The translations under genes and the position numbers were made by a program. This document shows, one piece after another, positions 10,755 to 22,670 of a stretch of DNA of 64,000 bases. The notes below the pieces were generated by a model, which saw nothing but the letters and a program-made list of their open reading frames with translations, did no database searches and was not told where the DNA came from. Position 1 is the first letter of the stretch. Every line of letters starts with the position of its first letter. Location of the stretch: assembly GCF_007858475.1 (NCBI RefSeq), contig NZ_VIGX01000011.1, positions 1-64,000 on the forward strand, read 5' to 3'. Source of the stretch: Tsukamurella conjunctivitidis (GTDB lineage: Bacteria; Actinomycetota; Actinomycetes; Mycobacteriales; Mycobacteriaceae).

Positions 10755-11099
10755 GTGCACGTCTCCCGCCGCGCCTTCCAGGAGTGGGTGTCGGACGCGC
10801 TCGACGACGTCCCGCCCGAGCTCGCCAAGGCGATGGACAACGTGGTGGTGCTGGTGCGCGACCGCAACGAGGAGGAGCCGACGCTGCTCGGCCTGTACGA
10901 GGGCATCGCGCTGACCGAGCGGGACTGGAACTACGTGGGCACCCTGCCGGACACCATCACCATCTACCGCGAGGCGCTCATGGACATCTGCGACACCGAG
11001 GAGCAGCTACGCCACGAGATCCGGGTGACCGTGCTGCACGAGATCGGCCACCATTTCGGAATTGACGACCACCGACTCCACGACCTGGGTTGGGCCTGA
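10755..11099 (+). CDS. Minimal zincin metallopeptidase (Rv3836-like)
   Basis: 114 residues from a GTG two bases after the preceding stop; an upstream start would lie inside the previous gene. The motif HEIGHHFGIDD (HExxHxxxxxD) near residue 96 marks the minimal metallopeptidase family (zincin-like, PF06262 type), where two His and an Asp bind Zn. The domain is otherwise small and lacks a signal peptide, so a cytoplasmic role is likely. The last 43 bp of this gene, including its stop, are copied just downstream at 11119-11161. Substrates of the family are unknown. Confidence 0.85.
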   Translation: MHVSRRAFQEWVSDALDDVPPELAKAMDNVVVLVRDRNEEEPTLLGLYEGIALTERDWNYVGTLPDTITIYREALMDICDTEEQLRHEIRVTVLHEIGHHFGIDDHRLHDLGWA

Positions 11100-11161
11100 C
11101 CGGGCGGGTGCCACCCTCCGGAATAGACGACCACCGACTCCACGACCCGGGCTGAGCCTGA
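11057..11161 (+). repeat. Duplicated 3' end of the metallopeptidase gene
   Basis: Copy 1 (11057-11099) is the coding 3' end of the metallopeptidase, including TGA. Copy 2 (11119-11161) repeats 39 of 43 bases in the intergenic DNA, 62 bp downstream. It ends 11 bp before the deoD start. Mismatches are scattered, so the copy is not very recent. It marks the left side of DNA that is absent between Rv3836 and Rv3837c in M. tuberculosis. Confidence 0.85.
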
Positions 11162-11172
11162 GAGGAATCCAC

Positions 11173-11880
11173 ATGCCGACACCGCACAACTCCGCCGCCC
11201 CCGGTGACTACGCGCCCGCCGTCCTCATGCCGGGCGACCCGCGGCGCGCCCGCCGCATCGCCGAAACCCTGTTCGACGATGCCCGCCTGGTCAACGAGGT
11301 GCGCGGGATGGAGGCGTACACGGGCACCGTGGGCGGGCGGCCGATCTCGGTGATGGGCTCGGGCATGGGCATGCCCACCATGACGATCTACGCCACCGAG
11401 CTGTACCGCGAGTACGGCGTGGAGCGGATCATCCGGGTGGGCACGTCGGGCGGCTTCCAGGACGACCTCGCCCTCGGCGACGTGATCGTCGCGACCGCCG
11501 CCCACACCGATTCCGCGATCAACGATCCCCGCATCCCCGGCGTGCGGTTCGCCCCCGCCGCGTCCTATCCGCTGCTCCGCGCCGCGGTGGACGCCGCCGA
11601 GCGGGCCGGCACGCCCGTGCGGGTGGGGCCGGTGTACTCGTCCGACCACTTCTACCTGGCGCGCCCGGGCCTGCACGAGGGCCTGCGCGACCACGGCGTC
11701 CTCGGCGTCGACATGGAGACCGCCGCGCTCTACGCCGTCGCCGCAGCGGAGGGCCGCGAGGCCCTGACGGTGCTCACGGTGAGCGATCACCTCTTCCGCG
11801 AGGAAGCGATGCCGTCCGACGACCGCGAGAAGAGCTTCGCCGCCGCCGCGAACATCGCGATCGAGGCCGCCTTCAGCTGA
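11173..11880 (+). CDS. deoD: DeoD-type purine nucleoside phosphorylase
   Basis: 235 residues from the ATG at 11173, which follows a GAGAGGA Shine-Dalgarno; upstream in-frame starts fall in duplicated DNA. Family motifs are VLMPGDPRRA (phosphate loop), MGSGMGMPTM, RVGTSGG, and GVDMETAALYAVAAAEG (Met-Glu binding the ribose). VLTVSDH carries the catalytic Asp of the hexameric, bacterial DeoD type. The enzyme cleaves purine (deoxy)ribonucleosides with phosphate to base plus (deoxy)ribose-1-phosphate. Mycobacteria usually use a different, trimeric enzyme, so this may be an acquired gene. It stands alone between the copied metallopeptidase tail and the pyrimidine block. Confidence 0.92.
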   Translation: MPTPHNSAAPGDYAPAVLMPGDPRRARRIAETLFDDARLVNEVRGMEAYTGTVGGRPISVMGSGMGMPTMTIYATELYREYGVERIIRVGTSGGFQDDLALGDVIVATAAHTDSAINDPRIPGVRFAPAASYPLLRAAVDAAERAGTPVRVGPVYSSDHFYLARPGLHEGLRDHGVLGVDMETAALYAVAAAEGREALTVLTVSDHLFREEAMPSDDREKSFAAAANIAIEAAFS

Positions 11881-11882
11881 GC

Positions 11883-11916
11883 ACTAACCCATCGGGTCCA
11901 GGCGCGACGGGGCGTC
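11883..11916. repeat. Left copy of 34-bp direct repeat flanking the pyrimidine block
   Basis: This segment matches 21114-21147 at 32 of 34 positions. At 21114 it is the 3' end and stop of the histidine phosphatase gene (coding DAPSHLDPMG). Here it has no gene attached. It lies 3 bp after the deoD stop and 8 bp before the transporter stop. The two copies bracket exactly seven genes. Confidence 0.9.
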
Positions 11917-11924
11917 GACCCGGG

Positions 11925-13448
11925 TCACGCCGGCGTACCCTGCACCGGCGCCCCGGCATCGTCCTCGGGCGCCCGAGGCGGCTGCGGAGGGGCCGCCTCG
12001 GCTTCCGGATCCGGGGTCCGACCGCCGCCGCCCAGGATCGGAGTGAGCACCAACACCAGCACCGCGCCGAGGGCGGCACCGATCGGCCAGCTCAGCGCCG
12101 TCACGTATTGCGAGCTCGGCACCAGGGCGATCACCACGGCCACGGCGCCGGAAATCACGAGGGCTACCACCGCGGCGGGGTTGACGCCCCGGACGAAGTA
12201 GTAGGAGCCGTCGGGACGAGTGGAGTACAGGTCGGCGATCCGCGTGCCCTGCTTGCGGATCAGGTAGTAGTCCACGACCAGGATCCCGAACACCGGCCCC
12301 ATCAGCGCCCCGACACCGCCGAGGAAGTAGACCACCGCGGCCTCGCTGCCCCACACCTTCCACGGCAGCACGACGATGGACAGCACGGCGGTGATGATGC
12401 CGCCGGTGCGGAAGGAGATGTACTTGGGCGCCACGTTGCTGATGTCGTAGGACGGCGAGACGAAGTTCAGCACCACGTTGATCCCCACGGTGGCGACCGC
12501 GAACAGGAGCGCGGCGATCACGACGACGACGTCCGAGTCGATCTCCGAGACCAGCGCCACCGGATCTTTCGAGCTGTCGCCGAACACCTTGAGCGAGCAC
12601 AGCGAGATCACCAGGGAGATCAGCACGAAGGCGGTCTCGTTGAGCGGGATCCCGAGCGCGTTCCCGCGCCGGATGGCGCGGGTGGAGGGCGACAGTCGAG
12701 CGAAGTCGGCGTAGTTCACGAGAGGGCCGGCCATGAACGCCACCATCAGGAAGGCGACGGCCACGAAGGCCGCGACGGTGCTCGGCCCCGACAGCGGAGA
12801 TCCGGCGCGCGCGTTCCAGTCGATGCTCCAGTCCGCCTTGTTCAGCATCCACAGCGCCAGCGCGAACATCCCGATCCACACCACCGGACCGGCGAAGTCC
12901 GAGACCCGGCGGACGATGTCCATGCCGTACGACAGGATCAGCAGCTGCACCACCCACAGGCTCATGAAGACCGCCCATCCGAGCGGGCTCTGCCCGAGGA
13001 AGCCGCCGTGCGTCCAGGCCTCGGTGGAGGGCCAGATCCGCACGATGAGGGCGATCACCGCCAGCGCCGCGAGGTAGGTCTGGATGCCGTACCAGAACAC
13101 GGCGACCAGGCCGCGCAGCAGCGCGGGAATGTTGGCGCCGAAGATCCCGAAGGTCGCCCGGGCGAACACCGGGAAGGGCACGCCCACCTTCTGCCCGGCC
13201 ACGCCGATCAGGTTCGATCCGGCCCACAGCATCAGGACGCCGACGAACAGCGCGACCACGGTCTGCCACCCCGTGAGGCCGAGCGCCAGCATGCCGACGG
13301 CGAATCCGTAGCTCCCCAGGCTGTGCGCCGAGGTCATCCACAGGCAGAACAGGTCCCACGACTTCCAAGTGGCGTTCTCCTTGGTGGTGGGAGCCAGATC
13401 AGCGTTCAACAGCGCCGAACCGCTGGGCGCGGTAACCCGTTCGGACAT
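11925..13448 (-). CDS. NCS1-family nucleobase/hydantoin:cation symporter
   Basis: 507 residues with about 12 transmembrane helices. The N-terminal NATWKSWDLFCLWM and SLGSYGFAVGMLALGLTGWQ segments, GVAGQKVGVPFPVFARATFG and VNYADFARL are typical of NCS1 (Mhp1, PucI) carriers. These import hydantoin, allantoin, uracil or cytosine with Na+ or H+. The gene is the last of the minus-strand cluster of dihydropyrimidine catabolism, so uracil, dihydrouracil or a hydantoin is the likely cargo; the sequence alone cannot choose. The C-terminal 40 residues are Pro/Ala/Glu-rich. The stop lies 8 bp from the flanking direct repeat. Confidence 0.88.
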   Translation of the reverse strand: MSERVTAPSGSALLNADLAPTTKENATWKSWDLFCLWMTSAHSLGSYGFAVGMLALGLTGWQTVVALFVGVLMLWAGSNLIGVAGQKVGVPFPVFARATFGIFGANIPALLRGLVAVFWYGIQTYLAALAVIALIVRIWPSTEAWTHGGFLGQSPLGWAVFMSLWVVQLLILSYGMDIVRRVSDFAGPVVWIGMFALALWMLNKADWSIDWNARAGSPLSGPSTVAAFVAVAFLMVAFMAGPLVNYADFARLSPSTRAIRRGNALGIPLNETAFVLISLVISLCSLKVFGDSSKDPVALVSEIDSDVVVVIAALLFAVATVGINVVLNFVSPSYDISNVAPKYISFRTGGIITAVLSIVVLPWKVWGSEAAVVYFLGGVGALMGPVFGILVVDYYLIRKQGTRIADLYSTRPDGSYYFVRGVNPAAVVALVISGAVAVVIALVPSSQYVTALSWPIGAALGAVLVLVLTPILGGGGRTPDPEAEAAPPQPPRAPEDDAGAPVQGTPA

Positions 13449-13469
13449 GACGGAGCCCCTGTCGTTCGA

Positions 13470-14966
13470 TCAGTCGTTCTGCGGGAACCCGAGATTGATG
13501 CCGCCGTGGCTGGGATCCAGCCACCGCGACGTGACGGCCTTCTCTCGGGTAAAGAAGGCATAGCCGGCGGCGCCGTAGGCCTTCGCATCGCCGAACATCG
13601 ACGCCTTCCATCCGCCGAAGCTGTAGTAGGCCACGGGAACCGGGATCGGGACGTTGATCCCGATCATGCCCACCTGCACCTGCCGCTGGAAGCGGCGCGC
13701 CGCGCCGCCGTCGTTGGTGAAGATCGCGGTGCCGTTGCCGTAGGGAGAGGCGTTGATGATGTCGACCGCCTCGGCGAACCCGGACACCCGGATCACCGAG
13801 AGCACGGGGCCGAAGATCTCGTCGCAGTAGGCCTGGGAGTCGAGCGGGACCCGGTCGAGCAGGGTGGGGCCGAGCCAGAAACCGTCGGCGGCACCGTCGA
13901 ACTCGCCGCCGCGCCCGTCGACGACAACGGTGGCACCGTCGGCGGCGGCCACGTCGATGTACCCGGACACCCGGTCGCGGTGCGCGGCGGTGATCAGGGG
14001 TCCCATGTCGCACCCCCGCCGGCCGTCACCCGTCCGCAGCGCCGCCATCCGGGTGCGGATCCGCTCGATCAGAGCGTCCGCCACCGAATCGACCACCAGG
14101 AGTGCGGAGACCGCCATGCACCGCTCACCCGCACTGCCGAATCCGGCGTTCACCGCGGCGTCGGCGGCGAGATCCAGATCGGCGTCCGGGAGCACGAGCA
14201 TGTGGTTTTTGGCGCCGCCGAGTGCCTGCACCCGCTTCCCCGCCACGGTCGCTTGCTGGTACACGTACTGCGCGATGGGGGTGGAGCCGACGAACGAGAT
14301 CGCCGCCACGCCGGGGTGCACCAACAGCGCGTCGACGGCCTCCTTGTCGCCGTGCACCACGTTCATCACCCCGGGCGGCAGGCCGGCCTCATCGAGCAGG
14401 GCGGCCAACCAGTTCGAGGCCGACGGGTCCTTCTCGCTCGGCTTGAGCACCACCGCGTTCCCGGCCGCGATGGCGAGCGGGAAGAACCACAGCGGCACCA
14501 TGGCCGGGAAGTTGAACGGACTGATGATGCCGACCACGCCGAGCGGCTCCCGCACCGAGTACACGTCGACACCGGTGGACGCGTTCTGGGTGAATTCGCC
14601 CTTGTTCAGGTGCGGCATGGTGAGCGCGAAGTCGACCACCTCGATCCCGCGGGCGATCTCGCCGGCGGCGTCGGCGAGCACCTTGCCGTGTTCGGCGGTG
14701 AGGATCTGCGCCAGCTCGTCGCGGCGGGTGGTGAGCAGCTCGCGGAACCGGAACAGCACGTCCATGCGGCGGGCGATGGACGCCTCGCCCCAGTCCACCT
14801 GGGCGGCCCGGGCCTGCGTCACGACGGCGTCGACATCGGCGGCGGAGGCGAGCCGGACCTCGGTGCTGACCACGCCGAGGGCCGGATCGTACACCGGTGC
14901 GGTGCGGGTGGAGGTGCCGGCCCACGGCCGGCCGGCGACGAGGTGATCCAGGGTGGTGACGGTCAT
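13470..14966 (-). CDS. mmsA: CoA-acylating methylmalonate/malonate-semialdehyde dehydrogenase
   Basis: 498 residues. The aldehyde dehydrogenase fold shows ISPFNFPAMVPLWFFP, catalytic Cys C283 in GSAGERCMA, and GGAKNHMLV. The last has Asn where ordinary ALDHs carry the general-base Glu, as in CoA-acylating MmsA enzymes. The reaction converts malonate semialdehyde (or methylmalonate semialdehyde) plus CoA and NAD+ to acetyl-CoA (or propionyl-CoA). That is the natural last step after transamination of beta-alanine (or beta-aminoisobutyrate). Its ATG overlaps the aminotransferase stop (ATGA, 14963-14966) and follows GGGAG. Valine catabolism is the alternative role, but the neighbours favour pyrimidines. 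Confidence 0.92.
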   Translation of the reverse strand: MTVTTLDHLVAGRPWAGTSTRTAPVYDPALGVVSTEVRLASAADVDAVVTQARAAQVDWGEASIARRMDVLFRFRELLTTRRDELAQILTAEHGKVLADAAGEIARGIEVVDFALTMPHLNKGEFTQNASTGVDVYSVREPLGVVGIISPFNFPAMVPLWFFPLAIAAGNAVVLKPSEKDPSASNWLAALLDEAGLPPGVMNVVHGDKEAVDALLVHPGVAAISFVGSTPIAQYVYQQATVAGKRVQALGGAKNHMLVLPDADLDLAADAAVNAGFGSAGERCMAVSALLVVDSVADALIERIRTRMAALRTGDGRRGCDMGPLITAAHRDRVSGYIDVAAADGATVVVDGRGGEFDGAADGFWLGPTLLDRVPLDSQAYCDEIFGPVLSVIRVSGFAEAVDIINASPYGNGTAIFTNDGGAARRFQRQVQVGMIGINVPIPVPVAYYSFGGWKASMFGDAKAYGAAGYAFFTREKAVTSRWLDPSHGGINLGFPQND

Positions 14967-16279
14967 CGGTGTTCTCCCATCAGGACGGAGCGGTAGATCG
15001 CGATCGCCTCGGCGACCTCGGAATCGGTGACGGTGCACGGCGGGACCACATGGATCCGGTTGTCGGCCACCATCGGCAGCAGCCCGCCGGCGATGAGGCT
15101 GGCCTTGATCCGGGCCAGCCGGTCGGCACGGAGCGGCGCACGGGTGGTGCGGTCCTCGACGAGCTCGAGCGCCCAGAAGACGCCCTCGCCGCGCACCTCG
15201 CCGATCAGCGGGCAGTCGTCGGCGAGCGCGCGCAGTGCGGGACCGAGCACGTCGCGACCGATGCGGGCGGCGTTCTCGACGATGCCCTCCTCGGCCATCG
15301 CATCGAGCGCCGCCACGATGGACGCGCACGCCAGCGGGTGGCCGCTGTACGTCAGGCCGCCGGGGAAGACGCGATCGTCGAAGGTCTTCGCGATGGCCTC
15401 GCCGATGACAATGCCGCCGACCGGTACGTATCCGGAGTTGACGCCCTTGGCGAAGGTGATGAGGTCCGGCCGCACGCCGTGCCGGGTGTGCGCGAACCAC
15501 GCGCCGGTCCGGCCGAAGCCGGCCATCACCTCGTCGAGGATGAGCAGGATGCCGTGGCGGTCGGCGATCTCCCGCACACCCGCCAGGTATCCGGGCGGCG
15601 GCACCAGCACCCCGGCGGTACCGGGTACGGACTCCAGCAGGATCGCCGCGACGCTGTTCGGGCCCTCGACCACGACGGTGCGCTCCAGGTGCGCGAGCGC
15701 GCGCTCGCACTCCTGCTCCCGCGTCTGCGCCCAGAACTCGGAGCGGTACAGATACGGGCCGTGGAAGTGCGCGTGGCCGTGGGCGTACTCGTTCGGCAGG
15801 CGTCGCCAGTCGCCGGTCGCCACGACGGCCGCCCCCGTGTTGCCGTGATAGGAGCGGTAGGCACTGAGCACCTTGGTGCGCCCGGTGTGCAAGCGCGCCA
15901 TGCGGATCGCGTTCTCCACCGCGTCCGCGCCGCCGTTGGTGAAGAAGACCTTGGTGAAGCCCTCGGGCGCCAGCCCGACGATCCGGCTGGCCGCCTCGCC
16001 GCGCGCCAGATTGGCGACGGACGGCCCGACCGTGCACAACTGCTCCGCCTGATCGGCGATCGCGCGCAACATCTTCGGGTGCTGGTGCCCGATGTTGACG
16101 TTGACCAGTTGGCTGGAGAAGTCGAGGTAGCTGCGCCCGGAAGCGTCCCACACCCGGGTGCCGAGCGCGCCGCTGATCACCATCGGGTCGAGCGCGGCCT
16201 GCGCCGACCAGGAGTGGAAGACGAAGTCCCGATCCAGCTCGTACGCGCGACGATCCAGGTCCGCGGTGTCGGCGGCCAT
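14963..16279 (-). CDS. Class III aminotransferase, probable beta-alanine/omega-amino acid transaminase
   Basis: 438 residues from the ATG at 16279, preceded by AAGGA within the end of the upstream gene. Fold-type I class III features are FTNGGADAVENAIRMAR, SYHGNTGA, LILDEVMAGFGRTG with D249, and FAKGVNSGYVPVGG with the PLP lysine K278. In this cluster it would move the amino group of beta-alanine or 3-aminoisobutyrate to pyruvate or 2-oxoglutarate, giving malonate or methylmalonate semialdehyde for the downstream MmsA. Substrate assignment rests on context. The gene is separated from the LLM gene by one base. Confidence 0.9.
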   Translation of the reverse strand: MAADTADLDRRAYELDRDFVFHSWSAQAALDPMVISGALGTRVWDASGRSYLDFSSQLVNVNIGHQHPKMLRAIADQAEQLCTVGPSVANLARGEAASRIVGLAPEGFTKVFFTNGGADAVENAIRMARLHTGRTKVLSAYRSYHGNTGAAVVATGDWRRLPNEYAHGHAHFHGPYLYRSEFWAQTREQECERALAHLERTVVVEGPNSVAAILLESVPGTAGVLVPPPGYLAGVREIADRHGILLILDEVMAGFGRTGAWFAHTRHGVRPDLITFAKGVNSGYVPVGGIVIGEAIAKTFDDRVFPGGLTYSGHPLACASIVAALDAMAEEGIVENAARIGRDVLGPALRALADDCPLIGEVRGEGVFWALELVEDRTTRAPLRADRLARIKASLIAGGLLPMVADNRIHVVPPCTVTDSEVAEAIAIYRSVLMGEHR

Positions 16280-16280
16280 G

Positions 16281-17306
16281 TCAGGCGTCCTTCTTCGCCG
16301 TGATGGTGCGGTTGACGGCGGGGATGATGTGTTCGCCGTACTGGCGCATCGTCTCCTCCTTCTGGTCGTGCTGCAGGTAGCCGGCGAACTGGTGCACACC
16401 GAGCTTCTGCAGCGCCTCGATCTTGGTGAGGTGATCGGCCACGGAGCCCAGCAGGCAGAACCGGTCGATCACTTCGTCGGACACGAAGTCGGCGTGGGTG
16501 TTCCCCGCCTGCCCGTGCTGGTTGTAGTCGTACCCGCTGCGCTGGGCGATGTAGTCGGTCAGCGCGGCGGGCACCGCGCCGCCGGTGGCGCCGTACCGGG
16601 CGACGATGTCGGCCACGTGGTTTCCGACCATGCCGCCGAACCACCGGCACTGATCGCGCTGGTGGGCGAGATCGTCCCCGATGTACATCGGGGCGGCGAC
16701 GCAGATCTTCACCGCCTCGGGATCGCGGCCGGCGTCCGACGCGGCGGACTTCACCGCGTCGATCATCCACGCGGCGATGTCCAGGTCGGCCAGCTGCAGG
16801 ATGAACCCGTCGGCCACCTCGCCGGTCAGGGCCAGGGCCTTGGGGCCGTACGCCGCCACCCACATCTCCAGTTCCGAGCCGGCGCTCCAGGGGAACTGCA
16901 GTGTCGAGCCGCGGTACTCGACCGGACGGGAGTTGGCGAGTTCGCGGATTACGTGGATGGATTCACGCAGGGTCGCCAGGGTGGTGGGCTTCCCGTTGGT
17001 CACCCGGACCGCGGAATCGCCGCGTCCGATGCCGCAGACCGTCCGGTTGCCGAACATCTCGTTGAGCGTTGCGTACAGCGACGCGGTGACGGTCCAGTCG
17101 CGGGTGGCGGGGTTGGTCACCATGGGCCCCACCGTGACCCGCCGGGTCTCGGCGAGCATCTGCGAGTACAGCACGTAGGGCTCCTGCCACAGCAGGTGCG
17201 AGTCGAACGTCCACACGTGGTTGAAGCCGTGCGACTCCGCCAGTTTCGTGAGTGCGATGGTGCGGGCGGCGGGCGGGTGACACTGCAGGACGACGCCGAA
17301 ATCCAT
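16281..17306 (-). CDS. Luciferase-like (LLM) flavin/F420-dependent oxidoreductase in a pyrimidine catabolic cluster
   Basis: 341 residues with the bacterial luciferase-like TIM barrel: MDFGVVLQCHPPAARTIALT start, HVWTFDSHLLWQEPYVL, VGPMVTNPATRDWTV, and GIGRGDSAVRV. Such proteins use FMNH2 or the deazaflavin F420. It resembles a subgroup often found beside hydantoinases (the CPS_4043 type, as I recall it). It is not RutA: length and motifs differ from that uracil oxygenase. The cluster has no PydA/PreTA dihydropyrimidine dehydrogenase, so this enzyme may interconvert uracil and dihydrouracil or attack the ring; that is a hypothesis. AGGAG precedes the ATG; the gap to hydA is 9 bp. Confidence 0.8.
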   Translation of the reverse strand: MDFGVVLQCHPPAARTIALTKLAESHGFNHVWTFDSHLLWQEPYVLYSQMLAETRRVTVGPMVTNPATRDWTVTASLYATLNEMFGNRTVCGIGRGDSAVRVTNGKPTTLATLRESIHVIRELANSRPVEYRGSTLQFPWSAGSELEMWVAAYGPKALALTGEVADGFILQLADLDIAAWMIDAVKSAASDAGRDPEAVKICVAAPMYIGDDLAHQRDQCRWFGGMVGNHVADIVARYGATGGAVPAALTDYIAQRSGYDYNQHGQAGNTHADFVSDEVIDRFCLLGSVADHLTKIEALQKLGVHQFAGYLQHDQKEETMRQYGEHIIPAVNRTITAKKDA

Positions 17307-17315
17307 GGTCAGCTC

Positions 17316-18737
17316 CTAGATGAGGTACTGGCTAAGTGCGCGATGGACGAACCGGCCGTCGCCCTTGCGCCCGAGGTACTGGCCGTCGTCGACGATCACC
17401 TTGCCGCGCGAGAGCACGGTGTCCACGTGGCCGTCGATCTCGAATCCCTCCCAGGCGGAGTAGTCGAGGTTCATGTGGTGCGTCTTCTCGAGCCCGATGG
17501 ACGTGTGCCCGTTCGGGTCGTAGACCACGATGTCCGCATCGGCCCCCGGGGCGAGTACCCCCTTGCGGCCGTACATCCCGAACATCCGGGCCGGCGTCGT
17601 CGACGTGATCTCCACCCAGCGTTCCAGGGTGATCTTGCCCGACACCACGCCCTGGTACATCAGGTCCATCCGGTGTTCCACCGAGCCGATGCCGTTGGGG
17701 ATCTTGGAGAAGTCGCCGATCCCCATGTCCTTCTGGCCCTTCATGCAGAAGGGGCAGTGATCGGTGGACACCATCTGCAGGTCGTTGGTGCGCAGCGCCT
17801 GCCAGACCTCGTCCTGGTGGTGCTCGTGCTTGGACCGCAGGGGCGTGGAGCACACCCACTTCGCGCCCTCGAAACCCGGTGCGCCGAGCTGATCCTCGAG
17901 CGAGAGGTAGAGGTACTGCGGGCAGGTCTCCCCGTACACGTTCTGTCCCTGATCCCGCGCCGCGGCGAGCTGCGCCACGGCCTGCTTCGCCGAGACGTGC
18001 ACCACGTACAGGGGCGCCCCGGTCAACTGCGCCAGCATGATCGCGCGGTGCGTGGCCTCCTCCTCGAGCTGCCAGGCGCGGGCGATGCCGTGGTAGTACG
18101 GATCGGTCTTGCCCTGCGCGAGGAGTTGCTGCACGAGCACGTCGATCGCGGGGCCGTTCTCGGCGTGCATCATCGTCAGCAGTCCGGTGTCGGCGGACAC
18201 CTGCATGGCCTGCAGGATCTGCGCGTCGTCGCTGTAGAACACGCCCGGGTAGGCCATGAACATCTTGAAGCTGGTGATGCCCTCATCCTGCAGGCCGCGG
18301 ATCGCCGACAGCGATGCCGAGTTCACATCTCCCACGATCTGGTGGAACGCGTAGTCCACGGCGCATTCCCCGCCGGCCATCGCGTGCCAGGTGGCGAGCG
18401 AGTCCTCCAGTCGCTCACCGAACTTCTGCACGGCGAAATCGACGATGGTGGTGGTTCCGCCCCAGGCCGCCGCGCGCGTGCCGGTCTCGAAGGTGTCCGA
18501 GGCGTTGGTGCCGCCGAAGGGCATCGACATGTGCGTGTGCGCGTCGATCCCGCCGGGGATCACGTACTTGCCGGTTGCGTCGATCACGGTGTCCGCGGTG
18601 GCCGCGAGGTCGCTGCCGAGCACGGTGGTGCCCGGTTCGAGCAGGGCGACGATGCGCTCCCCGTCGACCAGCACGTCCGCCGCTCCGCGGCCGGTGGCCG
18701 AGACCACGGTGCCGCCGGTGATGAAGGTCGTCGACAT
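17316..18737 (-). CDS. hydA: Dihydropyrimidinase / D-hydantoinase
   Basis: 473 residues, typical length. The cyclic amidohydrolase metal site is complete: HTH at H67 and H69, the carboxylated lysine K158 in SFKMFMAYPG (Y163 is the substrate-binding Tyr), H191 in MMHAENG, a further His in YVVHVSAKQ, and the catalytic Asp in STDHCPF. The enzyme opens 5,6-dihydrouracil or dihydrothymine to the N-carbamoyl-beta-amino acid and also accepts hydantoins. Together with the downstream ureidopropionase it forms the core of the reductive pyrimidine pathway. It is cytoplasmic and expected to be a homotetramer. Separated by 8 bp from the upstream ureidopropionase gene. Confidence 0.95.
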   Translation of the reverse strand: MSTTFITGGTVVSATGRGAADVLVDGERIVALLEPGTTVLGSDLAATADTVIDATGKYVIPGGIDAHTHMSMPFGGTNASDTFETGTRAAAWGGTTTIVDFAVQKFGERLEDSLATWHAMAGGECAVDYAFHQIVGDVNSASLSAIRGLQDEGITSFKMFMAYPGVFYSDDAQILQAMQVSADTGLLTMMHAENGPAIDVLVQQLLAQGKTDPYYHGIARAWQLEEEATHRAIMLAQLTGAPLYVVHVSAKQAVAQLAAARDQGQNVYGETCPQYLYLSLEDQLGAPGFEGAKWVCSTPLRSKHEHHQDEVWQALRTNDLQMVSTDHCPFCMKGQKDMGIGDFSKIPNGIGSVEHRMDLMYQGVVSGKITLERWVEITSTTPARMFGMYGRKGVLAPGADADIVVYDPNGHTSIGLEKTHHMNLDYSAWEGFEIDGHVDTVLSRGKVIVDDGQYLGRKGDGRFVHRALSQYLI

Positions 18738-18745
18738 GGCGGCGC

Positions 18746-19594
18746 CTACCGAGCCGGGATCGCGGTGTAGGAGTCAGGCCGGCGGTCCCGATAGAACTGC
18801 CAGTCGTTGCGGACCGCGCGGACCAGTCCGAGGTCGAGGTCGCGGATCACGATCTCCTCCGTGTCGGTCGAGCCCGCGTCGCCGACCAGGTTGCCGCGCG
18901 GGTCCACGAAGTAGGAGGTGCCGTAGAAGGTGACGGCGAGGTCGCCGAATTCGTCCGTCTCCGTGCCGATCCGGTTGTTCGCCGCGACGAAGTACTGGTT
19001 GGCCGCCGCCGCGGCCGGCTGCTCGAGCTCCCACAGGCGGTTCGACAGCCCGGGCTTGGTCGCCGACGGATTGAAGACCAGTTCGGCCCCGCCCAGGCCC
19101 AGCTCGCGCCAGCCCTCCGGGAAGTGCCGGTCGTAGCAGATGTACACGCCGACCTTGCCGACGGCGGTGTCGAACACCGGGTATCCGAGGTTACCCGGCC
19201 GGAAGTAGAACTTCTCCCAGAAGCGATCCAGGTTCGGGATGTGGTGCTTGCGGTACTTGCCGAGGTAGGTGCCGTCGGCGTCGAGAACGGCGGCGGTGTT
19301 GTAGTACAGGCCGGGCATCTCCTCCTCGTACACGGGGAGCACGATGACCACCCCGAGTTCGCGGGCGAGGGCTCCGAACCGCTCGGTCAGCGGGCCCGGC
19401 ACCTGCTGGGCGTACTCGTAGTACTTGGCGTCCTCGACGATGCCGAAGTAGGGGCCGTGGAACAGCTCCTGGAAGCAGACGATCTGTGCGCCGTCCGCCG
19501 CGGCCTGCCGCGCCAGCGCCTCGTGCTTGTCCACCATCGACGCCTCGTCGCCGGTCCATGTGGCCTGAGTGATGGCCGCCCTGATCACCGTCAT
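18746..19594 (-). CDS. Beta-ureidopropionase / N-carbamoyl amidohydrolase (nitrilase superfamily)
   Basis: 282 residues. The nitrilase triad is present: E43 in CFQELFHGPYF, K116 in GKYRKHHIP, C153 in VYICYDRHFPEGWRELG. The HHIPN segment and FNPSATKPGLSNRLWELEQ match N-carbamoyl-beta-alanine amidohydrolases (PydC/UPB1 type). The product is beta-alanine (or beta-aminoisobutyrate), CO2 and ammonia. It is the first gene of the six-gene minus-strand operon, and its ATG at 19594 follows GGAGG at suitable spacing. The promoter must lie in the AT-rich gap shared with the divergent MocR gene. Confidence 0.93.
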   Translation of the reverse strand: MTVIRAAITQATWTGDEASMVDKHEALARQAAADGAQIVCFQELFHGPYFGIVEDAKYYEYAQQVPGPLTERFGALARELGVVIVLPVYEEEMPGLYYNTAAVLDADGTYLGKYRKHHIPNLDRFWEKFYFRPGNLGYPVFDTAVGKVGVYICYDRHFPEGWRELGLGGAELVFNPSATKPGLSNRLWELEQPAAAAANQYFVAANNRIGTETDEFGDLAVTFYGTSYFVDPRGNLVGDAGSTDTEEIVIRDLDLGLVRAVRNDWQFYRDRRPDSYTAIPAR

Positions 19595-19716
19595 CGTGTC
19601 CTCCGATCCGTCTCGACTTGCTTCTGTTACTCTATTGTTTGAACATTTCTCTAATATTTCAGCTGCGTGAGGTTACGTTAAGGAGTGTGCCGCACCGCGG
19701 CGCTCGTGGAGGCGAG
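19595..19716. promoter_or_regulatory. Divergent promoter region between pyrimidine operon and MocR regulator
   Basis: This 122-bp gap is markedly AT-richer than its surroundings (19618-19680 includes TTACTCTATTGTTTGAACAT and TCTAATATTT). GGAGG at 19708-19712 serves the regulator; GGAGGA serves the operon. MocR proteins usually bind in such divergent gaps and control both sides. No clear repeated half-sites could be fixed by eye. Confidence 0.6.
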
Positions 19717-21105
19717 ATGGATAAATCACCGACCGAACCGGTCCGCGACACCCCCGCCCTCCACATCGACGATCCGTCGCCGGCCGGGATCGCCGGCGCC
19801 ATCGCCCGGATGATCAACGCCGGCGAGCTGGTCCCCGGCGACCGGCTGCCCACCGTGCGCGCCCTCTCCCGACAACTGAACGTCTCGCCCGCCACCGTCA
19901 GCCAGGGCTGGCAGGCCCTCGCCCGGTCCGGCCTCGTCGTCTCGCGGGGCCGCAGCGGCACCTTCGTCGCCGAGGGGGCCGCGCGGAGGCCCGCACCGGC
20001 ATCGCGGACGATGACGATGGCCGGCCCGGACGGGGACGTCCGGTGGGATCTGTCCCTCGGGGCTCCCGACCCGCGCCTCCTGCCCGAGATCGCGCAATCC
20101 CTTGGCGCCGTTGCCCGCCGGGCGGAGACCACGAACTACCACGAGCACCCCGTGGTCCCCGAACTCGGCGCTCTGCTGAGCGACAGCTGGCCGACCTCCT
20201 CCGAAGCACTGACGATCGTCGACGGCGCGCTCGACGCAGTGGTCCGGGCGGTGGACGCCGTCACCCGCTACGGCGACCGGGTCATCGTGGAGAACCCGAC
20301 CTTCCCCCAGTTCCTCGACCTCCTGGAGGTCAACGGCCTGCACCCCCTGCCGGTCCGGCTGGACGAGGAGGGGATCCGGCCGGACGACTTCGCGCGCGCG
20401 CTGGAACAGGGCCCGTCCGCCGCGATCATCCAGCCGCGAGCGCAGAACCCCACCGGCCGGTCGATGTCGCGGAGCCGCGCGGAGGAACTCGTCCGCCTGC
20501 TGCGCGGGGACGCGCGCTGCATGGTGATCGAGGACGACCACTCCGGTTCGGTCGTCTCCGCGGGCGACCTCAGCCTCGGCCAATGGATACCCGAACGGGT
20601 CCTGCACATTCGGAGCTTCTCCAAATCGCACGGGCCCGACCTCCGGATCGCCGCGATGTCCGGCCCCGCCGCCGTGATCAACCGGGTGGTCGCGCGGCGC
20701 GCACTCGGCCCCGGGTGGACGCCGCGGATCCTCCAGCGCCTGCTCTACGACCTTCTCTCCGACGCGACGGCGGAACGCACCGTGGCCCGCGCCCGCGACG
20801 AGTACGCGCGCCGCCGCGACGCGCTCGTCCCCGCGCTCGCGGGAATCGACGCCGGCGCGGCCACCGCGGAGGGACTCAACCTCTGGATCCCCGTGGAGGA
20901 CGAACGGCGAGCCCTGATCCATCTGGCCGCCGAGGGCATCCGCGTGGCCCCCGGCACGCCGTTCGTGGTGGGCACACCGGACATCGACCACATCCGCGTC
21001 ACGATCGCCCCGCTCGACACCGACTTCGCCGACGTCGGCCGCGCCGTGGCCACCGCCGCCGCCCCCGTCCGGCGGGACGGGTTCTACGCGCTCCGCGAGC
21101 TCTGA
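19717..21105 (+). CDS. MocR-type (GntR wHTH / aminotransferase) regulator of the pyrimidine block
   Basis: 462 residues from the ATG at 19717 (GGAGG four bases upstream); an in-frame ATG at 19618 lies in promoter-like DNA and is not favoured. The N-terminal winged helix contains LPTVRALSRQLNVSPATVSQ and SRGRSGTFV. The rest is a fold-type I aminotransferase domain with PRAQNPTG, a VIEDDHSG aspartate, and SFSKSHGPDLR with the PLP lysine. MocR regulators sense a metabolite as an external aldimine. Divergent placement implies that it controls the catabolic operon, perhaps in response to beta-alanine or an amino intermediate. Activator versus repressor cannot be decided here. Confidence 0.9.
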   Translation: MDKSPTEPVRDTPALHIDDPSPAGIAGAIARMINAGELVPGDRLPTVRALSRQLNVSPATVSQGWQALARSGLVVSRGRSGTFVAEGAARRPAPASRTMTMAGPDGDVRWDLSLGAPDPRLLPEIAQSLGAVARRAETTNYHEHPVVPELGALLSDSWPTSSEALTIVDGALDAVVRAVDAVTRYGDRVIVENPTFPQFLDLLEVNGLHPLPVRLDEEGIRPDDFARALEQGPSAAIIQPRAQNPTGRSMSRSRAEELVRLLRGDARCMVIEDDHSGSVVSAGDLSLGQWIPERVLHIRSFSKSHGPDLRIAAMSGPAAVINRVVARRALGPGWTPRILQRLLYDLLSDATAERTVARARDEYARRRDALVPALAGIDAGAATAEGLNLWIPVEDERRALIHLAAEGIRVAPGTPFVVGTPDIDHIRVTIAPLDTDFADVGRAVATAAAPVRRDGFYALREL

Positions 21106-21113
21106 ACGCGCGG

Positions 21114-21147
21114 ACTAGCCCATCGGGTCCAGGTGCGACGGGGCGTC
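21114..21147. repeat. Right copy of 34-bp direct repeat (3' end of histidine phosphatase gene)
   Basis: 32 of 34 bases match 11883-11916. This copy contains the stop codon and last ten codons of the histidine phosphatase gene, so it is the functional, presumably ancestral, copy. It begins 8 bp after the MocR stop. Confidence 0.9.
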
Positions 21148-21741
21148 TGCCCAGCTCACCAGCTCCCAGCCGGCGTCGACGGGGCGGAGCACGATCTCGC
21201 CGGTGTTCGGCAGGTGATGCTTGTGCGCGTAGGCGCCGTCGACCCCCGACAGGTGGAAGCCGACGAGCCGGATGGCGGCCCCGTGGCTGACCAGGTAGGC
21301 GTCGCCGCGCGGCAGGTGCTCGGCGCGGATCGCGTCCACCGCGGGCAGGTACCGCGCCAGCAGATCCTCGGCGCTCTCGCCGCCGGGCATCGCGGCGGTC
21401 GGCTCGCCGGAGTACCAGCGGCGCACGACGTCCTGGAAGACCTCGATGGAGGCCTCGTCGTTGAAGCCCTCGAGGTCGCCGGCCTGCACCTCGTGCACCC
21501 CGTCGATCACGGAGGTCGGCACGCCCCAGGCGTCGGCGATGTGTCCCGCGGTCTGCTGCGCGCGGCGCGCGACCGAGCTGAGCAGCACGGCCGGAGCGGC
21601 GTTCGGCCGCCCGACGCCGAACCGACGGGCCTGCTCGGCCCCCTCGGGCGTGAGCGGCGCGCCGGGCGGCAGGGTGTCGAGGATCCGTGCGACGTTCGCG
21701 GTGGTCTGGCCGTGCCGGACCAGGTGCAGCAGGCCGGTCAT
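21115..21741 (-). CDS. Histidine phosphatase superfamily protein (phosphoglycerate mutase-like, Rv3837c-like)
   Basis: 208 residues. The phosphohistidine motif LVRHGQT (H10) lies at the N-terminus, and a second catalytic His is in YLVSHGAAIRL. A Glu-containing HEVQAGDLEGF segment supplies the acid/base. Family members remove phosphate from sugar phosphates or small metabolites; only some are true mutases. Its start overlaps the pheA stop by 4 bp (ATGA), so it is co-transcribed with pheA as in mycobacteria. The 3' end is duplicated 9.2 kb away. Confidence 0.9.
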   Translation of the reverse strand: MTGLLHLVRHGQTTANVARILDTLPPGAPLTPEGAEQARRFGVGRPNAAPAVLLSSVARRAQQTAGHIADAWGVPTSVIDGVHEVQAGDLEGFNDEASIEVFQDVVRRWYSGEPTAAMPGGESAEDLLARYLPAVDAIRAEHLPRGDAYLVSHGAAIRLVGFHLSGVDGAYAHKHHLPNTGEIVLRPVDAGWELVSWADAPSHLDPMG

Positions 21742-22670
21742 CGCTCTCCCCTCCGCAGGCCGTCGAACCAGGCCTCGGAGTCACCGGGGTCGACGGGGGC
21801 CGTGCCGGGCCCGCCCGGGCGCGGCCAGGAGCCCAGGAAGCGGAGGTCGTCGCACACCCGGTGCAGGGCGCGCAGCGCCTCGCCCACCGCGGGATCGTCG
21901 ATGTGGCCGACGCAGTCGAAGTGGAAGACGTAGCTGCCGAAGACGGTTCGCTTCGGGCGTGACTCGATCCGCGTGAGATCCACACCGCGCAACGCGAACT
22001 CGGCCATCGCCAGGGCCAGCGACCCGGGCCTGCTCGGCACGTCGAGAACGACCGCCGTGCAGTCGCTGCCGGTGCGCTCGGGCGCCGGACCGGGCTTGCC
22101 GCACAGCACGAATCGAGTGCGGGCGTCGGCGACGTCGGCCACGCCGGTCGCCGCCTCGGGGACGTCGTACATCCGCGCGGCGAGCGCCGTGGTGACCCCG
22201 GCGTCCACCCGCCCCTCCGCCACGTCGAGTGCCGCGGCGGCGTTGGAGGCGGCCGGAACCACCTGAGCCTGCGGCATGTTCGCGGCGAGCCACGCGCGGA
22301 CCTGCGCGGCGGCCACCGGATACGCGCCCACGGTCCGGGCCTCGGCCAGCGGCTTCGACGACGCGAGCGAGAAGGCGACGGCCAGGTCGGTCTCGGCGAA
22401 GATCTGCAGCGGCGCGCCGAACCCGAGGGTGTCGAGCGTCGGTGTGACGGGCCCCTCGACGGACGACTCGATGGGCACGCACGCGAGATCGGCGGCACCG
22501 TCGGAGACCATCTCGAGGGCGGCCACCTGACTGGGGGCGCTGATCCGCTCCGCCCCGACGAGGTCGACGCCGGGCACCGTCATCGCACCGCGAGCGGCGA
22601 GTTCCTGGCACTGGAGCAGCGCCATCTCGGTGAACGTCCCCTCGGGGCCGAAGTAGGCGATGCGCGTCAC
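21738..22670 (-). CDS. pheA: Prephenate dehydratase
   Basis: 310 residues. The N-terminal PDT domain (about 1-190) begins IAYFGPEGTFTEMAL and includes VPIESSVEGPVTPTLD and DARTRFVLC. The C-terminal ACT domain has RPGSLALAMAEFALRGVDLTRIESRP, whose GALV/ESRP-like pattern binds phenylalanine for feedback control. The reaction makes phenylpyruvate from prephenate with loss of water and CO2, the committed step of phenylalanine synthesis. There is no chorismate mutase domain, as is normal in actinobacteria. The start at 22670 is the first ATG of the conserved region. Confidence 0.96.
   Translation of the reverse strand: MTRIAYFGPEGTFTEMALLQCQELAARGAMTVPGVDLVGAERISAPSQVAALEMVSDGAADLACVPIESSVEGPVTPTLDTLGFGAPLQIFAETDLAVAFSLASSKPLAEARTVGAYPVAAAQVRAWLAANMPQAQVVPAASNAAAALDVAEGRVDAGVTTALAARMYDVPEAATGVADVADARTRFVLCGKPGPAPERTGSDCTAVVLDVPSRPGSLALAMAEFALRGVDLTRIESRPKRTVFGSYVFHFDCVGHIDDPAVGEALRALHRVCDDLRFLGSWPRPGGPGTAPVDPGDSEAWFDGLRRGER

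Follow-up and report, generated by a model that had tools for sequence, protein, structure and literature searches.

A catabolic gene block between two copies of a phosphatase gene end in a variable chromosomal slot of Tsukamurella

Genomic islands of the tRNA type integrate at the 3' ends of genes and are bordered by direct repeats that restore the 3' end of the gene. We analysed a stretch of 64,000 nucleotides from Tsukamurella conjunctivitidis (assembly GCF_007858475.1, contig NZ_VIGX01000011.1, positions 1 to 64,000 of the forward strand; hereafter the window), where a block of seven catabolic genes, running from an NCS1-family transporter gene to a MocR-type regulator gene, is enclosed by two copies of the 3' end of a histidine-phosphatase-type gene. 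The block shares with tRNA-type islands the direct repeat at a gene 3' end and differs from them in a contig without integrase match, a window without tRNA and the lack of the repeat where the block occurs elsewhere. Related cases are described in three published studies. In Oliveira et al. 2017 (PMC5635113), hotspots without integrases are turned over by recombination at the flanking core genes. The Tsukamurella locus resembles them in its conserved flanks, its genome-specific cargo and the failure to find an integrase, whereas those hotspots were described within species and our locus was compared across species of one genus, with a duplicated gene end marking the insertion. In E. coli (PMC3240628), a single crossover of a shortened circle leaves partial duplications (polymerase chain reaction product in 56 of 60 clones; 14 sequenced, 109-950 bp), and PMC5361080 describes displaced orphan genes or 3' regions in type VI secretion system/Rhs loci, for which illegitimate recombination was proposed. 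Our locus is like both in its apparently integrase-free insertion with a partial duplication or orphaned 3' region, the duplication being of 46 bp here compared to 109-950 bp in E. coli, and no donor carrying the block and the phosphatase gene outside the slot was found. The locus is another case of the integrase-free hotspot kind, already described; no relevant paper was found on this block in this genus. It documents at the level of single bases how an entire metabolic operon can join a chromosome when no mobile element is visible, and both loci of the block have empty counterparts for comparison.

The preliminary description of the locus had reported a 34-bp direct repeat with two mismatches, its right copy being the real 3' end of the phosphatase gene and its left copy orphaned, around exactly seven genes with 8-bp spacers, and each of these claims was borne out. 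The core copies at 11883-11916 and 21114-21147 are identical at 32 of 34 positions; dinucleotide shuffling of the window, repeated 100 times, gave zero matches to the repeat at three or fewer mismatches. The ungapped likeness extends to 46 bp (11883-11928 for the left, orphan copy and 21114-21159 for the right, native copy), with 40 of 46 positions identical. The histidine-phosphatase-type gene (21115-21741, minus strand) has an intact reading frame, and its 3' end constitutes the right copy. A spacer of 8 bp lies between each 34-bp copy and the nearest stop codon of the seven enclosed genes, and the NCS1 stop codon (11925-11927) falls inside the 46-bp left copy. A 71-base left-copy query against the whole genome of the window strain matched itself, the right copy and one 40-bp likeness (85% identity, E 3.9e-6), beyond which only matches with E ≥0.09 were obtained. 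This likeness (L009 4789-4828) sits within a GntR/FadR-looking coding sequence and is probably due to chance. A dispersed genomic repeat was rejected on the strength of this single outside likeness, and the worry voiced in the preliminary description, that the repeat might be widespread in the chromosome, proved unfounded.

Sixteen Tsukamurella genomes (G000 to G015) were compared, including the window genome (G000), T. sputi HKU70 (G013), Tsukamurella sp. TY48 (G014) and G003, which we take to be T. paurometabola; contig ends truncate the stretches of G008 and G011, and a short stretch was chosen for G012. DNA of the window shows 91% identity to a named Tsukamurella record. The phosphatase gene was present in all 16, and the slot between it and a metallopeptidase-family gene showed constant flanks with differing cargo. 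These two flanking genes have at most 28 bp between them in G001, G003, G012 and G014 (4/16). The purine-nucleoside phosphorylase gene deoD stands alone in the slot, adjoining the phosphatase gene, in G002, G004, G005, G006, G008 and G015 (6/16), all of which possess one copy of the repeat; the empty site of a named T. tyrosinosolvens record is the same as that of G015. The slot contains deoD together with the block in G000 and G013, deoD with other open reading frames (ORFs) in G007 and G009, and another ORF without deoD in G010 and G011. At E ≤1e-40, deoD was detected in 10 of the 16 genomes and always in this slot; in G009 (L036) it is in pieces, one with an internal TGA, for which decay or a sequencing error is possible. 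The alignment to relatives that the preliminary description had proposed yielded one-copy empty sites, which support insertion, and the left copy is present in both genomes that carry the block in the slot. The same description had taken the bordering genes to be the pair that is presumably numbered Rv3836 and Rv3837c in M. tuberculosis; this has to be corrected, since the left border is deoD (about 11173-11880, plus strand), with the metallopeptidase gene (10755-11099, plus strand) lying beyond it.

Both ends of the slot bear gene-end duplications, because the metallopeptidase gene end, like the phosphatase gene end, has a copy. This 43-bp duplicate (11119-11161, copied from 11057-11099; 91% identity) stands just before deoD in G000, G002, G006, G013 and G015 (5/16), and G008 exhibits a 15-bp piece of it. 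In G014, 20 bp of the phosphatase gene 3' end are repeated in near-tandem without cargo (L041 17877-17896). A scan for near-tandem repeats over about 404 kb of genus sequence listed 16, of which six corresponded to the metallopeptidase gene end in this slot; among these six stretches are L027 and L042, the two copies of T. tyrosinosolvens type. The remaining ten, by look only, mostly resemble repeats within coding sequence.

A hydA gene of the block kind was found in 4 of the 16 genomes. Besides the two slot carriers these are G003 and G014, where the whole block lies at a second locus, with an MFS-type transporter gene on one side and, on the other, a small gene beside a TrmH-type methyltransferase gene (names read from the ORFs, not by family search). 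The second site is empty, with its neighbours adjoining, in 12 of 16 genomes including the window genome and G013, and the neighbourhood is arranged differently in G010 and G011. The likeness of the second-locus block to that of the window stops at the MocR stop codon and, on the other side, within the NCS1 tail, the NCS1 protein having 507 residues at the slot versus 488 in G014 at the second locus. No phosphatase sequence was found at the second-locus block of G003 and G014, nor any clear junction repeat, the best alignments there (13 in G014; 16, long and gapped, in G003) being read as chance. Judged from these sequences, the repeat derives from the target phosphatase gene in the window lineage and not from the block, because the second-locus block is without phosphatase sequence or clear repeat. 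The NCS1 stop codon lies in target-derived sequence in the window and, by alignment, in G013.

The explanation that we favour, with a confidence somewhat above even, is that a conserved catabolic operon was inserted into the slot without an integrase, duplicating 46 bp of the target, before T. sputi and the window species diverged. In the ancestor shared by these two species, a variable slot flanked by two convergent genes would have received the block, either by horizontal transfer or from a different place within the genus. Host recombination or end-joining, rather than an integrase belonging to the block, would have made the join within the terminal 46 bp of the phosphatase gene. These 46 bp would have been doubled in the event, so that one copy ends the intact gene and the other, next to deoD on the far side of the block, contains the stop codon of the NCS1 gene. 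If a staggered break at the phosphatase gene's end were repaired by end-joining of a fragment, the block with its flanking 46-bp copies would result in one step; the same outcome would follow from a single crossover in which the incoming circularised fragment carried a truncated part of that gene. We infer both this recombination step and the rise of the duplication at the insertion itself. The end-joining protein Ku was found in all 16 genomes. In favour of insertion are the six one-copy sites where deoD meets the phosphatase gene and, in addition, the four genomes in which the metallopeptidase gene adjoins it.

Several points weigh against this explanation. The search for tyrosine integrases (PF00589), which gave no match on the 113-kb contig (C21), did not cover serine recombinases or transposases, and neither an intermediate nor a donor junction came to light. 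With this hydA absent from 12 of the 16 genomes, it is possible that an ancestral block was lost many times. Near-tandem gene-end duplications without cargo occur in the slot, so that the left copy may predate the block. This last point leads to a two-step route, in which the phosphatase 3' end would first have been duplicated near-tandem and the block would later have entered the spacer without making any duplication. Such a history is in line with the cargo-free phosphatase-end copy of G014, with the duplicated metallopeptidase gene end in the five genomes named above, and with the other insertion of the block, which took place in a short intergenic gap and left no clear repeat; however, none of the six deoD-only genomes has the phosphatase duplication. 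The two-step route is nearly as good as the one-step route, and taken as a claim of its own we regard it as possible, if rather unlikely.

The geometry of the locus, with a repeat at a gene 3' end, an intact gene and the displaced end on the far side, would also fit a site-specific integration at the phosphatase gene 3' end, in which the repeats would be the attachment sites attL and attR and the integrase would have acted in trans or since been lost. The window genome has 12 places elsewhere that match PF00589 at E ≤0.001 and that could act in trans. Against this stand the contig without PF00589 match and the second-locus block without this sequence or a clear repeat. Nor do the other cargoes of the slot include a phosphatase-end copy that aligns with a score of more than 14: G007 gave alignments scoring 12-14, which we read as chance, and G009, G010 and G011 gave none of at least 12. 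Among plasmid records, none spans 80% of the 7,101 block bases searched (14000-21100). We set aside the integrase-att reading, given the absence of PF00589 on C21, of a tRNA in the window and of the repeat at the second locus, and we consider it very improbable. The footprint of insertion seen by the preliminary description hence stands as far as insertion is concerned, through the one-copy empty sites and the left copy in both carriers, and its remark that no integrase is present agrees with the PF00589 search, while the site-specific 3'-end integration was not supported. Recombination between the two copies could possibly delete the block.

The differences at 4-fold-degenerate sites in the block and in a set of six core genes were, respectively, 0.233 and 0.255 for G000-G013, 0.309 and 0.384 for G000-G014, 0.389 and 0.425 for G000-G003, and 0.345 and 0.382 for G003-G014. 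Since block and core have diverged alike between G000 and G013, the slot insertion should be older than the split of these two genomes and a single old event. The block divergence of G000 from G003 and G014 is also near that of the core, as would be expected if the block had been ancestral in the genus, had moved once between the loci and had been lost many times, recombination between the repeats having emptied the slot sites. This alternative requires losses in the lineages of 12 of the 16 genomes, and the block tree tends to place G014 with the window lineage and not with its sister G003; we hold it to be improbable. In the core tree, from which G008 is absent (its short contig lacks the genes), G003 and G014 were joined with a support of 100. 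In the block tree, with an outgroup of one Gordonia and five Nocardia, G014 was grouped with G000 and G013 with a support of 83 for all positions and 87 for positions 1+2. An approximately unbiased (AU) test of the G003+G014 clade on the block, picked after the disagreement between the trees was seen, gave p values of 0.13 (all positions) and 0.019 (positions 1+2). These trees give a hint that the block may have been transferred from a TY48-like lineage.

The two left copies compare differently with the G002 sequence. The left copy of the window has 5 differences from the G002 sequence over 45 sites, and its right copy has 1. The left copy of G013 has 1 change from the G002 sequence, compared with a neutral expectation of about 5.2 for the branch (P(0) 0.005; P(≤1) 0.034), and its first 36 bases are identical to the right copy of the same genome. 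A C at position 4 of the G013 left copy is absent from the 12 other genomes compared, a set without G010 and G011 (unalignable) and G015 (same as T. tyrosinosolvens). This one informative base gives a hint of a possible gene conversion between the G013 repeat copies.

Outside the genus, a scan of public genomes returned 80 loci, 29 of which were inspected. All seven genes were observed in the same order in Gordonia polyisoprenivorans and in 14 Nocardia loci, where the stretches inspected contained neither deoD nor the phosphatase gene. Only the carbon-nitrogen hydrolase (UP), hydA, LLM and NCS1 genes were seen in seven Mycobacteroides/Mycobacterium loci and in three Nocardia loci. The rest of the 29 comprised one Nocardia locus ended by the contig end, two Tsukamurella loci and one Gordonia locus with distant matches only.

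Operons for reductive pyrimidine or hydantoin breakdown contain hydA, an amidohydrolase, an aminotransferase, a semialdehyde dehydrogenase and an NCS1 transporter. The block shares this gene set and differs in that a TIGR03842 LLM-class oxidoreductase is present and a PreA-type dihydropyrimidine dehydrogenase was not found. Four of the seven products scored over a fitting curated cut-off: hydA, a dihydropyrimidinase/D-hydantoinase (17316-18737, minus strand; TIGR02033, 557.7 bits for a cut-off of 393.25, a model that does not separate dihydropyrimidinases from hydantoinases), the CoA-acylating methylmalonate-semialdehyde dehydrogenase mmsA (13470-14996, minus; TIGR01722; start codon unsettled), a class-III aminotransferase of the PRK06062 type (14963-16399, minus; NF004718; start probably over-long) and the LLM-class oxidoreductase of the F420 type (16281-17306, minus; TIGR03842). 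The three others scored below the cut-offs of their best models. These are the NCS1-family transporter (11925-13448, minus; TIGR00800), a carbon-nitrogen hydrolase, perhaps a beta-ureidopropionase (18746-19594, minus; TIGR03381, 246.3 bits, under the cut-off of 410.25, with beta-ureidopropionases among the PDB matches), and the MocR-type regulator (19618-21105, plus; best model NF012025, all listed models under their cut-offs; start probably over-long). Solved (PDB) relatives were sought for the LLM, hydA, carbon-nitrogen hydrolase and NCS1 proteins, and PDB matches were obtained for hydA as well.

The link between the LLM and hydA genes was followed in 249 genomes of the order, with scoring limited to the six to eight top candidates of each genome. 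TIGR03842 (E 1e-80) was detected in 52 genomes and dihydropyrimidinase (E 1e-120) in 55, with both in 50, and 51 of 53 TIGR03842 copies had a same-strand hydA within 3 kb (50 within 203 bp). The LLM gene occurred without hydA in G168 (79% complete) and G180 (76%), and hydA without the LLM gene in five genomes. Of these, G036 and G162 exceed the cut-off by a small margin and G048 is 74% complete; the complete genomes G110 and G219 count against a strict LLM-hydA rule. PreA at E ≤1e-80 was found in none of the 249 genomes, in a search that detected the controls E. coli and Deinobacterium chartae, and its model NF006183 gave no match over the cut-off of 335 in five Tsukamurella genomes (the four carriers and one non-carrier), each of which exhibited two weak matches of at most 47.6 bits. 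In the PDB, the LLM protein is matched best in sequence by F420-dependent methylene-tetrahydromethanopterin (Mer) reductases, which makes an F420-dependent reduction of the pyrimidine ring by this enzyme a fair hypothesis. We put forward more tentatively, with a confidence below even, that the block might constitute a pyrimidine pathway complete in itself and spread by horizontal transfer, where TIGR03842, probably with F420H2, would replace the PreA-type dehydrogenase, and that this would be the rule in the order. Against the pyrimidine reading, the solved relatives of the NCS1 transporter are hydantoin transporters, the family models do not tell the two hydA activities apart, and the dehydrogenase search covered the PreA type and not other kinds of dihydropyrimidine dehydrogenase. 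The tight LLM-hydA link and the failure to find PreA in the order point to an as yet unassigned first step of pyrimidine (or hydantoin) breakdown, which can be assayed directly. In G003, the LLM match (G003:C1:849349-850335) contains one in-frame stop (TAG).

Regarding the neighbours of the block, deoD scored over the cut-offs of the NCBIfam models NF004489 and TIGR00107, and the metallopeptidase gene, the conserved left side of the slot, matched a T. tyrosinosolvens 'metallopeptidase family protein'. The phosphatase gene is annotated in T. tyrosinosolvens as 'histidine phosphatase family protein', the listed NCBIfam models being under their cut-offs, and has beside it the prephenate dehydratase gene pheA (21738-22670, minus strand), assigned from the T. 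tyrosinosolvens annotation and the slot comparison. No known RNA family reached its gathering threshold between 9000 and 24000 of the window. The T. tyrosinosolvens record of L027 (NZ_LR134454.1), labelled 'plasmid 12', contains serS, pheA and other core-looking genes, and it may be a mislabelled piece of chromosome.

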